Shown here one piece after another: positions 10,791 to 15,850 of a stretch of 30,544 nt of DNA. The stretch spans positions 1 to 30,544 of the forward strand of contig CAMJRV010000001.1 in NCBI GenBank assembly GCA_946408315.1, given 5' to 3'. The position numbers and the translations under genes are program-made. The notes beneath the pieces are model-generated. The model had not been told where the DNA came from. It saw nothing but the letters and a program-made list of their open reading frames with translations, and did not search any database. Source of the stretch: an uncultured Bacillota bacterium (GTDB taxonomy: Bacteria; Bacillota; Clostridia; Peptostreptococcales; Anaerovoracaceae). Within the stretch, counting starts at the first letter, position 1; each line of letters starts with the position of its first letter.

Positions 10791-12371
10791 ATGGAAATCA
10801 GAGATATGACGGCCCTGGAACTCGGAGAGAAGATCAGGGCCAGGGAGCTTGGCAGTATAGAAGTGGTCCGGAATTATCTGGATGCCATCCGGGAGGAAGG
10901 AGAGACGGCGAGCGCCTATATCACCGTTTCGGAGGAAAAGGCGCTGGCACAGGCGAAACGCGTTCAGGAAAGGATCGACCGGGGAGAACAGTTATCACCT
11001 CTGGCCGGTGTTCCTGTCGCCGTAAAGGATAATATCTGCACGAAGGAAATGAGGACGACGGCCGCATCGCGCATGCTCGACGGCTTCCTTCCGCCCTATG
11101 ATGCGACGGTGATCGAAAGGCTGAAGGCTGCGGGAGCGGTCATCCTGGGAAAGACCAACCTGGACGAGTTTGCCATGGGAGGTTCTACCGAAACATCGTA
11201 TTACGGGACTGCAAGGAACCCCTGGGATTTCGATCGTGTACCCGGCGGCTCGTCGGGAGGGTCGGCTGCGGCGGTTGCCGCAAAGCTCGCGCCCTATGCC
11301 CTGGGCTCGGATACCGGAGGTTCCATCCGGCAGCCCTGCGCTTTCTGCAACCTGACCGGCATCAAGCCCACCTACGGCAGCGTATCCCGTTACGGGCTCA
11401 TGGCTTACGCGTCCTCTCTGGACCAGATCGGCACTATGGGAAGAGATATTAAAGATTGTGCGGCATCGCTGGCCCTCATTTCAGGCTACGACCCCCTGGA
11501 CAGTACGTCGGTGATGAAGGAGCCCTTCGATTTTTCCGGCATCTATGCTGGTTATGGTGGTGCACAGGGGCTTTCGGCGGGGGCATCGGCCGGGAGCAGC
11601 GGGTCCCTGTCCGGGATAAAGATCGGTCTGCCGAAGAACTATTTTGAGACCGGTATTTCCGCAGACGTAAAGGAGGCGGTGCTTGGGGCTGCGAAAACCT
11701 TTGAAATGCTGGGGGCCGCTGTGGAGGAATTTGAAATTCCCGCCATAGACTACGCGGTTCCCGCCTACTATATCATCGCCTGCGCGGAAGCAAGCTCCAA
11801 TCTGTCCCGTTACGACGGGATCAAATACGGCTTTCGTTCGGAACAGGCCCGGGACCTCTCGGAAATCTTCTATCGGTCCCGGAGCGAAGGCTTCGGAAGG
11901 GAAGTGAAACGGAGGATCATGCTGGGATCCTTCGTTCTGAGCTCCGGTTATTTCGACGCTTATTATAAAAAGGCTCTTCAGGTCAGAGGCCTGATCAAGA
12001 GCTCTTTCGACGAGGCTTTCTCAAAATACGACATGATACTCGGTCCCGTAAGCCCGACGACAGCGTATCCAATCGGGGGGCAGATCGAAGATCCTCTGGC
12101 TATGTATATGGCCGATATCTATACCGTATCCATCAACCTTTCCGGGCTTCCGGCGGCGGCGCTCCCCTGCGGCTTTGACCGCCAGGGCATGCCGGTGGGC
12201 ATGCAGCTGATCGGCAGGGCGTTTTCGGAAGCGGCCCTCATAGGAGCGGCCCAGGTCTATCAGGACAATACGGATTACCATACGAAGTTCCCGGAAAGCA
12301 GGATCGGAGAAAACAAAGGAAAAAGGCCCGAAGAAAACGTTCGGAGCAGGAAAGGAGGGCAGGATCAATGA
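10791..12371 (+). CDS. gatA: Asp-tRNA(Asn)/Glu-tRNA(Gln) amidotransferase subunit A
   Basis: This 526-residue protein is the glutaminase of GatCAB. The amidase-signature triad is intact at the canonical positions: Lys79 (GVPVAVKDN), Ser154 (PGGSSGGSAAAVAA) and Ser178 (DTGGSIRQP). It releases ammonia from glutamine, which travels to the GatB active site. Compared with typical GatA there is a short Gly/Ala/Ser-rich insertion around residues 250-275 (YGGAQGLSAGASAGSSGSLSG) before IKIGLPKNYF, and a basic, charged C-terminal tail (GENKGKRPEENVRSRKGG). The ATG at 10791 has GGAGGGAAG upstream. Its stop overlaps the start of the gatB-aspS fusion by 4 bases (ATGA), so translation is probably coupled. 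Confidence 0.96.
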   Translation: MEIRDMTALELGEKIRARELGSIEVVRNYLDAIREEGETASAYITVSEEKALAQAKRVQERIDRGEQLSPLAGVPVAVKDNICTKEMRTTAASRMLDGFLPPYDATVIERLKAAGAVILGKTNLDEFAMGGSTETSYYGTARNPWDFDRVPGGSSGGSAAAVAAKLAPYALGSDTGGSIRQPCAFCNLTGIKPTYGSVSRYGLMAYASSLDQIGTMGRDIKDCAASLALISGYDPLDSTSVMKEPFDFSGIYAGYGGAQGLSAGASAGSSGSLSGIKIGLPKNYFETGISADVKEAVLGAAKTFEMLGAAVEEFEIPAIDYAVPAYYIIACAEASSNLSRYDGIKYGFRSEQARDLSEIFYRSRSEGFGREVKRRIMLGSFVLSSGYFDAYYKKALQVRGLIKSSFDEAFSKYDMILGPVSPTTAYPIGGQIEDPLAMYMADIYTVSINLSGLPAAALPCGFDRQGMPVGMQLIGRAFSEAALIGAAQVYQDNTDYHTKFPESRIGENKGKRPEENVRSRKGGQDQ

Positions 12372-15300: not shown

Positions 15301-15850
15301 AAGATACGCGGGTCAGATCAGAACGGAGCTCGGCAAACGGCTGGACCTCATCCGAAAGGACCGCTTTGCATTTTGTTTTATCACTGACTTTCCGATGTAT
15401 GAGATCAGCGAAGAGACGGGCAGGGTCGAATTTACCCACAACCCGTTTTCCATGCCCAAGGGTGAGATGGAGGCGCTGCTTGGGATGGATCCCCTTGAAA
15501 TCAAGGCATACCAGTACGATATCGTCTGCAACGGCGTGGAGCTTTCTTCCGGGGCGGTCCGGAACCACCGTCCCGACATCATGGTGAAGGCATTTGAAAT
15601 CGCAGGCTATACGGAGGAAGATGTCAAAAACAAATTTGGCGCCCTCTATCAGGCATTTCAGTATGGGGCGCCGCCTCACGCGGGTATGGCCCCCGGCGTC
15701 GACCGCATCGTCATGCTGCTGTCGGAGGAGGAGAGCATCCGCGAGGTCATTCCGTTCCCGCTGAACAGCAATGCTCAGAACACGATGCTCAACTGTCCCG
15801 GCGAGGTGGATGAGAAGCAATTGCGGGAGGTCCATGTGAAAATCAGATAG
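12368..15850 (+). CDS. gatB-aspS: GatB-AspRS fusion: amidotransferase subunit B joined to aspartyl-tRNA synthetase
   Basis: One uninterrupted frame of 1160 codons. Residues 1-476 are a full GatB: His12, the zinc Cys pairs C23/C25 and C38/C41, Glu125 in IHMEEDAGKL, DYNRCGVPLIEI, and the tail domain ending FDFLVGQCMRRLSGSASPRTIHELLREKL. Residues 477-580 are a charged linker containing a 10-residue repeat. Residues 585-1160 are an essentially complete bacterial AspRS: an OB-fold anticodon domain (GWINTIRNHGGIAFIDLRD), PEGARDYLVPSR, motif 2 FRDEDARIDRSPGEFYQLD, an inserted GAD domain and motif 3 GVDRIVMLL. His615 matches the His reported in non-discriminating AspRS, and the second marker position is Glu660 rather than Lys, consistent with charging tRNA(Asn) too. 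The fusion would tie Asp-tRNA(Asn) synthesis to amidation. A sequencing frameshift is not needed to explain it; both halves and the linker share one frame. Confidence 0.95.
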   Translation: MKYETVIGLEVHVELSTKTKIFCGCTTAFGGLPNAHTCPVCLGMPGSLPVFNKAVADKAIKAGLALHCEIERNNRFDRKNYFYPDLPKDYQISQLYAPICRDGWLDLSLSGDAAKRITIREIHMEEDAGKLIHDASGTLIDYNRCGVPLIEIVTNPDFSDGEEVTDFLERLQEMLVYLDVSDCKMQEGSMRADVNLSVRPAGQREYGTRTEMKNLNSLKAIQRAIQFERERQIKVLETGGTVKQETRRWDDDQGESHAMRSKENAQDYRYFPDPDLLPIRIGEEWLEEMKNSMAELPQAKRLRYQAEFGLPEKAAKTLTSVKEVALLFEETAALSGLPKEAANTVIGDILRLMRDTATLPENLSIDAEKLAKIIGMVSRGEINRSVGKLLVEELYKNDTDPEGYVEAHGLRILENSDLIVPVVLEVLAGNPQSIADFRNGKEKAFDFLVGQCMRRLSGSASPRTIHELLREKLAEGEFPSGEDFAGEPSGFAQKTGEADRREQKTREEDRREQKTGEEDWPGQEPGGTGLSEHDRYEREKTELNAVFSSYGKYAARRIEEQKHGAREHGEQENGLAPISVFQSQAYRTKNCGELTIKDVGREVSLAGWINTIRNHGGIAFIDLRDHYGVTQVVMTEGQLAGLSRETVISVTGAVVQRDAETYNPNLSTGEVELKAGTVRVLSSAVSSLPFEVDSSTDTREDVRLKYRFLDLRNPKVHSNMVLRSEIIRFLRNQMERMDFLEIQTPILANSSPEGARDYLVPSRKHKGKFYALPQAPQQFKQLLMVSGFDKYFQIAPCFRDEDARIDRSPGEFYQLDFEMAFATQEDVFAVAEQVLSATFRRFTDKEISSAPFVRIPYADAMLKYGTDKPDLRNPLEIIDLSEFFQGVDFKPFQGKIVRGITISGCAGMPKSFFAAMEKFALGIGMKGLGYISVKEGMSYKGPIDKFFTDEQRRQIAELASLKEGDVLYFISDEKGLVERYAGQIRTELGKRLDLIRKDRFAFCFITDFPMYEISEETGRVEFTHNPFSMPKGEMEALLGMDPLEIKAYQYDIVCNGVELSSGAVRNHRPDIMVKAFEIAGYTEEDVKNKFGALYQAFQYGAPPHAGMAPGVDRIVMLLSEEESIREVIPFPLNSNAQNTMLNCPGEVDEKQLREVHVKIR
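13844..13927 (+). repeat. 30-bp tandem repeat in the GatB-AspRS linker
   Basis: Units start at 13844, 13874 and 13904 (the third partial, about 24 bp). Each begins CAGAAAACC and encodes QKT(G/R)E(A/E)D(R/W)..., giving 2.8 copies of a 10-residue charged repeat. Copies differ at few bases, so expansion looks recent. Confidence 0.85.

Follow-up and report, generated by a model that had tools for sequence, protein, structure and literature searches.

Organization of the locus

The DNA analyzed here (hereafter the window, a stretch of 30,544 nucleotides of contig CAMJRV010000001.1 from an uncultured bacterium of the family Anaerovoracaceae) carries a gatB::aspS fusion gene (12368–15850, + strand), in which GatB, a subunit of the amidotransferase GatCAB, and an aspartyl-tRNA synthetase (AspRS) are encoded in one open reading frame. 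An earlier note on this DNA, made from the sequence alone, had claimed a single frame of 1160 codons. The list of open reading frames confirms it: the frame starts with ATG and its translation of 1160 residues has no stop inside. The gene is the last of an operon with the order gatC-gatA-[gatB::aspS] behind a T-box leader. Upstream of it lie gatC (10491–10778, +; 95 residues; PF02686, TIGR00135 over cut-off) and gatA (10791–12371, +; 526 residues; Pfam, TIGR00132 over cut-off), and the stop of gatA shares four bases with the start of the fusion gene.

The GatB part (residues 1–476; 12368–13795, +) exceeds the cut-offs of the NCBIfam models NF004012, NF004014 and TIGR00133 and stays below those of three other GatB submodels; the AspRS part (residues 585–1160; 14120–15847, +) exceeds those of NF001750 and TIGR00459 on residues 584–1159. 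Every Pfam match on the protein is above its cut-off: GatB_N (5–287, profile positions 1–277 of 277), GatB_Yqey (327–473, 2–148 of 148), the OB-fold (603–681), the class II core (700–1133, 2–307 of 308) and the GAD insertion (893–979), with E-values of 1.6e-109 and 5.6e-120 for the two catalytic domains. A full-length GatB_N followed by a YqeY-like domain, with gatC and gatA in the same operon, identifies a GatB, and the presence of OB-fold, class II core and GAD insertion identifies an AspRS of the bacterial type, as the earlier note had described them (a complete GatB and an essentially complete AspRS). That note also gave a linker of 104 residues; the linker is there, but its length is about 108 (residues 477–584; 13796–14119, +). 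It is charged and poorly conserved. As to the zinc residues claimed for GatB, Cys23-x-Cys25 and Cys38-x2-Cys41 align with those of the Aquifex and Thermotoga proteins, while zinc binding itself is a putative assignment based on similarity, since GatB of S. aureus does without those cysteines. In the AlphaFold model of the fusion (predicted template modelling score, pTM, 0.46; mean predicted local distance difference test, pLDDT, 77.4) most of the linker has a pLDDT below 50, and the relative placement of the domains is not given by the model. Foldseek confirmed the two folds and nothing beyond. On the opposite strand, a 765-codon antisense frame (12365–14662, −) without Pfam match is taken as a shadow frame.

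Recurrence and origin of the fusion

The joined frame recurs in relatives. Among 296 genomes of the family, sampled evenly from a larger group and including that of the window, GatB and AspRS share one open frame in at least 42 genomes of 23 genera, the window's own among them. This is a lower bound because two candidates per genome were scored; in several of the 42 a contig end falls inside the fusion gene. Our fused panel consists of 39 genomes, 34 with their loci read and five (G237, G245, G089, G179, G149) assigned by frame length, and three more fused genomes (G141, G097, G137) lie beyond it. In these counts two metagenome-assembled genomes labelled Clostridiales Family XIII, L007 and L008, were taken as G078 (both have a 913-residue frame and are probably the same) and as G030 (the stretches are identical), respectively. 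The single-contig relative G195 has the same frame at 79% identity.

Across the 35 distinct fused loci that were read, window included, the distance from the GatB match to the AspRS match takes 29 values. As "fused" is itself defined by the frame, the fair count is that of distinct clade loci with gatB directly before aspS, and one frame is kept in 35 of these 36. The linkers are between 41 and 130 residues long, and the mean frequency of the top residue is 0.32 in them, versus 0.72 in GatB and 0.81 in AspRS; being variable in length, poorly conserved and mostly of low pLDDT, the linker fits a flexible tether.

In a tree of 137 AspRS rows (four were dropped as short or duplicate; quick method without bootstraps), 33 fused rows, the split locus of genome G192 and the contig-edge fragment G001 cluster together at a Shimodaira–Hasegawa-like approximate likelihood ratio test (SH-aLRT) value of 100. 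This group stands apart from the other AspRSs of the same type and far from a second AspRS type. On the tree made here the fused AspRSs are of one origin within one family. Among the matches listed for the order (393 genomes, E up to 1e-150) and for the class (391 genomes, E up to 1e-160), no GatB–AspRS fusion lies outside the family, and unfused GatB occurs in other family members (G028, G045, G152, G180). A 1137-residue AspRS frame in G569, from another family, was considered as a fusion and rejected, the DNA reading gatB, TAA and then an in-frame ATG of aspS. This arrangement (L193:1688–4981), in which one TAA and a few codons separate gatB from an aspS in phase with it, resembles the presumed precursor of a fusion.

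Two types of AspRS

The earlier note had proposed looking for a second aspS and for asnS elsewhere in the genome, and both are present. The second AspRS (G000:C171) is 44% identical to the fused one and lies behind hisS, whose HisRS product is model-confirmed; this linkage was examined in the window's genome only. We take His31 and Gly82 of P. aeruginosa AspRS to be markers of the non-discriminating enzyme, which also charges tRNA-Asn with Asp. At the position of His31, histidine is found in 36 of 36 fused rows (window included; two rows have the same sequence) and in 82 of 84 other AspRSs of the fused type (78 further loci and six rows from the family, including G192 and G001), whereas the second type has Leu (20/21) or Phe (1/21). 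At position 82 the same alignment gives Gly for M. smegmatis and Lys for E. coli. The AspRS part is predicted to be non-discriminating, although models of bacterial AspRS do not separate the fused type from the second type.

The catalytic motifs of fused-type AspRSs, whether fused or not, are altered (fusion residues 798–816, 1024–1028, 1060–1067 and 1102–1113). HNPFS is present in 116 of 116 rows versus HHPFT in 21 of 21 of the second type; SSGAVRNH (32/33 fused, 76/83 others) stands against GGGSIRIH (17/21), and AGMAPG, seen in most rows, against GGLAYG (20/21).

T-box leader and tRNA-Asn

The T-box leader of the operon (10136–10398, +; RF00230, 85.4 bits, E 2.1e-17) has the specifier AAC (Asn) by alignment, and specifier triplet, TGGNACC box and terminator are all in place. 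The intrinsic terminator (10390–10427, +) consists of a 13-bp stem (10390–10421) and a T run and overlaps the end of the antiterminator. Which triplet acts as specifier is presumed here, in line with the family consensus. The scan for T-boxes covered every fused operon that had 518 bases or more ahead of the first matched gat gene, 24 in all; 11 of them have a T-box, in every case with AAC at the specifier, and the leaders of four fused relatives (L127, L123, L125, L132) pass the Rfam gathering score. Ten of the 11 leaders show GAA, at least one base and AAC as a pattern, and the eleventh, L124, reads GAAU-AAC.

Most leaders (window, L007, L008 and those scanned among L122–L149) read GAAC, in which a Glu codon overlaps an Asn codon; this recalls a two-codon T-box that has reportedly been described. 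T-box control of tRNA-dependent amidation is also said to exist in C. acetobutylicum (Saad 2012, by its title). The available text of a 2008 survey has T-boxes absent before amidotransferase genes (PMC2494555). The tRNA-Asn of the window's genome, the one genome for which this is given, has U1-A72 and G73, U1-A72 being, in the available parts of two sources, the pair needed by bacterial GatCAB (PMC9976931, PMC4206432). A pattern search for tRNA-Asn in three genomes, with a pattern that was a guess, gave no match. The AAC specifier, the histidine at one presumed marker of non-discrimination and the U1-A72 pair tie the fusion to Asn.

Distribution of AsnRS, GlnRS and asparagine synthetases

The gene inventory was taken on a panel of 60 genomes: the 39 fused ones, the split G192 and 20 non-fused. 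The window's genome, a draft of 589 contigs and 67% completeness, contains AsnRS (G000:C48, model-checked again), GlnRS and AsnB; its one GatB match is the fused one, and AsnA gave no match in this incomplete draft. As asnS is present, the fusion is not the sole route to Asn-tRNA in the window's organism. AsnRS is over cut-off in 12 of 39 fused genomes, with a contig-edge fragment in one more (G237), in 20 of 20 non-fused genomes and in G192. It was not found in the other 26 fused genomes, where even the best match stays below 130 bits (cut-off 342.6); we read these matches as probable cross-matches of AspRS or LysRS. These 26 genomes are 57–96% complete. Were they independent, the probability of a chance absence in all of them would be about 7e-21, but they are related to one another and so not independent; on the tree, the presence of AsnRS takes 3 changes over 33 labelled rows. 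The fusion may thus be the only route in 26 of the 39.

AsnA is over cut-off in 6 of 39 fused genomes (all with AsnRS or its fragment), in 19 of 20 non-fused genomes and in G192; AsnB in 13 of 39 and 6 of 20. GatB is matched in all 39 fused genomes (36 over cut-off) and in none of the 20 non-fused ones, an absence largely built in because these were chosen for having no strong query match. A second GatB is found stand-alone in G014 and as a fragment in G054. GlnRS exceeds its cut-off in 33 of 39 fused genomes, with four more carrying fragments, and in 18 of 20 non-fused ones; in most fused genomes GatCAB is therefore not needed for Gln. The idea that GlnRS explains the fusion, by freeing GatCAB from Gln duty, does not discriminate, however: of 43 comparison genomes, selected because they have an unfused GatB, a related AspRS or an AspRS frame as long as AspRS–GatC, 34 also have GlnRS above its cut-off, so that its presence is at most permissive.

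A probable covalently tethered Asn-transamidosome and its alternatives

We consider it highly probable that the locus encodes, as the earlier note had proposed, a covalently tethered Asn-transamidosome, in which a predicted non-discriminating AspRS is flexibly linked to GatB and joined by GatA and GatC. The join is real, of one origin in one family on our tree, and accompanied by the three signs of Asn. The covalent link is present at the level of the gene; assembly of the complex and channelling are predicted. The fusion polypeptide, which we infer to stay intact in the cell, would form a pre-assembled transamidosome with the GatA and GatC of the operon. Its AspRS part would charge tRNA-Asn with Asp, the CCA end would move to the tethered GatB, GatA would deliver ammonia, and Asn-tRNA-Asn would be released. 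Uncharged tRNA-Asn would open the T-box and so activate the operon. In the window's organism, with AsnRS, GlnRS and AsnB also in the genome, the fusion would then be a second, Asn-responsive route used at starvation beside AsnRS, and in relatives without AsnRS the sole source of Asn-tRNA. For systems of separate genes, such Asn synthesis on the tRNA alongside AsnRS, upon accumulation of uncharged tRNA-Asn, is discussed in PMC4206432.

Several observations weigh against this reading. The marker Gly82 is absent from the 36 fused rows (Glu 26, Asp 9, Ser 1; Glu in the window). The window's T-box scores below the Rfam gathering score of 93, and 13 of the 24 fused operons tested show no T-box. Because AsnRS and AsnB are also encoded in the window's genome, its organism may not depend on the pathway. 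In G192 (L150, a single contig) a frameshift in the A-rich linker puts gatB and aspS in separate frames; a real split, a slippage site and a homopolymer error are candidate readings of it.

That one frame still yields two proteins in the cell, by cleavage of the linker or an internal start, and that the join has no mechanistic role, seems improbable to us. The linker is long, variable and predicted to be disordered and could be cut; 4 of 35 loci combine a start candidate in the linker with a strong Shine-Dalgarno match, and the two genes are out of frame in G192. Yet the window's linker has only two start candidates, TTG and GTG, neither preceded by a Shine-Dalgarno-like string, 4 of the 35 loci have no candidate start whatever, and a separately started AspRS would not need a frame kept through 29 spacings. 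A discriminating AspRS part, serving the ordinary supply of Asp-tRNA next to a GatCAB working on Glu-tRNA-Gln, would agree with the absence of Gly82 and with AspRS models that do not tell the two types apart. It sits poorly with an AspRS of the other type, with Leu at the marker, already in the genome, with GlnRS, with a specifier that reads Asn and with the 26 fused genomes in which AsnRS was not found, and we hold it to be very improbable.

More weight, though still on the unlikely side, goes to the view that where AsnRS exists, as in the window's genome, the fusion is a remnant of an indirect route inherited from an ancestor and contributes little. AsnRS and AsnB are present there, and GatB was not found in three same-genus genomes of 91–97% completeness (G080, G134, G168). 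Same-genus copies of the fusion are nevertheless 77–84% identical, and a T-box precedes 8 of the 9 fused operons from AsnRS-bearing genomes with enough upstream DNA, versus 3 of 15 where AsnRS was not found (Fisher p 0.002), an association that is only a lead because both traits follow clades. An assembly or sequencing error could be suspected from the fragmented and incomplete draft, but the joint frame occurs in at least 42 genomes, including the single-contig G195, and in 35 distinct loci that were read, so that we reject an artefact as next to impossible.

Relation to known systems

The Asn-transamidosomes of P. aeruginosa (4WJ3) and T. thermophilus (3KFU) likewise combine AspRS and GatCAB on tRNA-Asn. 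The window's GatB part matches the GatB chains of both; its AspRS part is a close match to the P. aeruginosa chain and a weak one to the archaeal-type AspRS2 of Thermus. In both structures GatB and AspRS are separate chains, whereas here the gene encodes one. A covalent join of bacterial AspRS to a GatCAB subunit is known in the AspRS–GatC fusion, a named architecture (NCBIfam NF009460, PRK12820). There, GatC follows AspRS (691 residues) and gatA and gatB lie downstream as separate matches; in the window GatB precedes AspRS and GatC is separate. The window's fusion scores 447.6 bits against the NF009460 cut-off of 1379, has no GatC in the chain and falls outside this family. AspRS–GatC fusions of 691 residues were found in the window's family (L200:845–2917) and in another family (L196:1166–3238); their GatC is over the Pfam and NCBIfam cut-offs, and both stay below the NF009460 cut-off. 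The AspRS tails of L153, L195, L197, L198 and L199 resemble those of L200 and L196 by eye.

The system of C. acetobutylicum is similar to that of the window in its extra clostridial AspRS with GatCAB, its T-box control and its AsnRS, but the summary of that work does not mention a fusion (PMC4206432). In an M. smegmatis mutant, gatC and gatA are fused, a join within the same pathway, but of two amidotransferase subunits without a synthetase, according to the available part of the source (PMC7541841). The earlier note knew of no experimental description of a GatB–AspRS fusion; likewise no description was found in open-access titles and starts of abstracts, a scope outside which most subscription papers lie, and the novelty claim is one of "not found" rather than "not published".

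The mycobacterial transamidosome forms only with tRNA, and complex stability has been proposed as a means of tuning fidelity (PMC8406222). How firmly transamidosomes grip mischarged tRNA, and whether their stability limits translation errors, has been argued on the basis of complexes bridged by tRNA. With a covalent tether, complex formation would no longer depend on tRNA. A natural one-chain enzyme, beside relatives with separate or differently joined genes, makes these questions testable. It also shows both AspRS types together with AsnRS in one cell, and a possible path to AsnRS loss. We put forward, tentatively and as possible rather than probable, a wider scenario for the family: a covalent Asn-transamidosome of single origin, whose tether would replace tRNA-dependent assembly, pass each Asp-tRNA-Asn, before it is released, to the GatB of the same chain and commit the amidotransferase to Asn, and so may have permitted the loss of AsnRS and AsnA in much of the lineage, with the nearby AspRS–GatC fusions as a second, independent solution.

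Neighboring genes

On the complementary strand upstream of the operon (6790–9983, −) lie a siroheme decarboxylase AhbB over its cut-off, an AhbA-like protein with 134.5 bits against a cut-off of 140, and then two radical SAM/SPASM proteins nearest to NirJ2 and NirJ1, both below cut-off; together they look like a cluster for a siroheme-dependent haem pathway. Genes related to nitrogen are found near the operon at 289–6659 (−), 3866–4525 (+) and 29465–30544 (+). They include pieces of glutamate synthase, a type III glutamine synthetase, an ANTAR response regulator and another glutamine synthetase, which is truncated at the end of the window.

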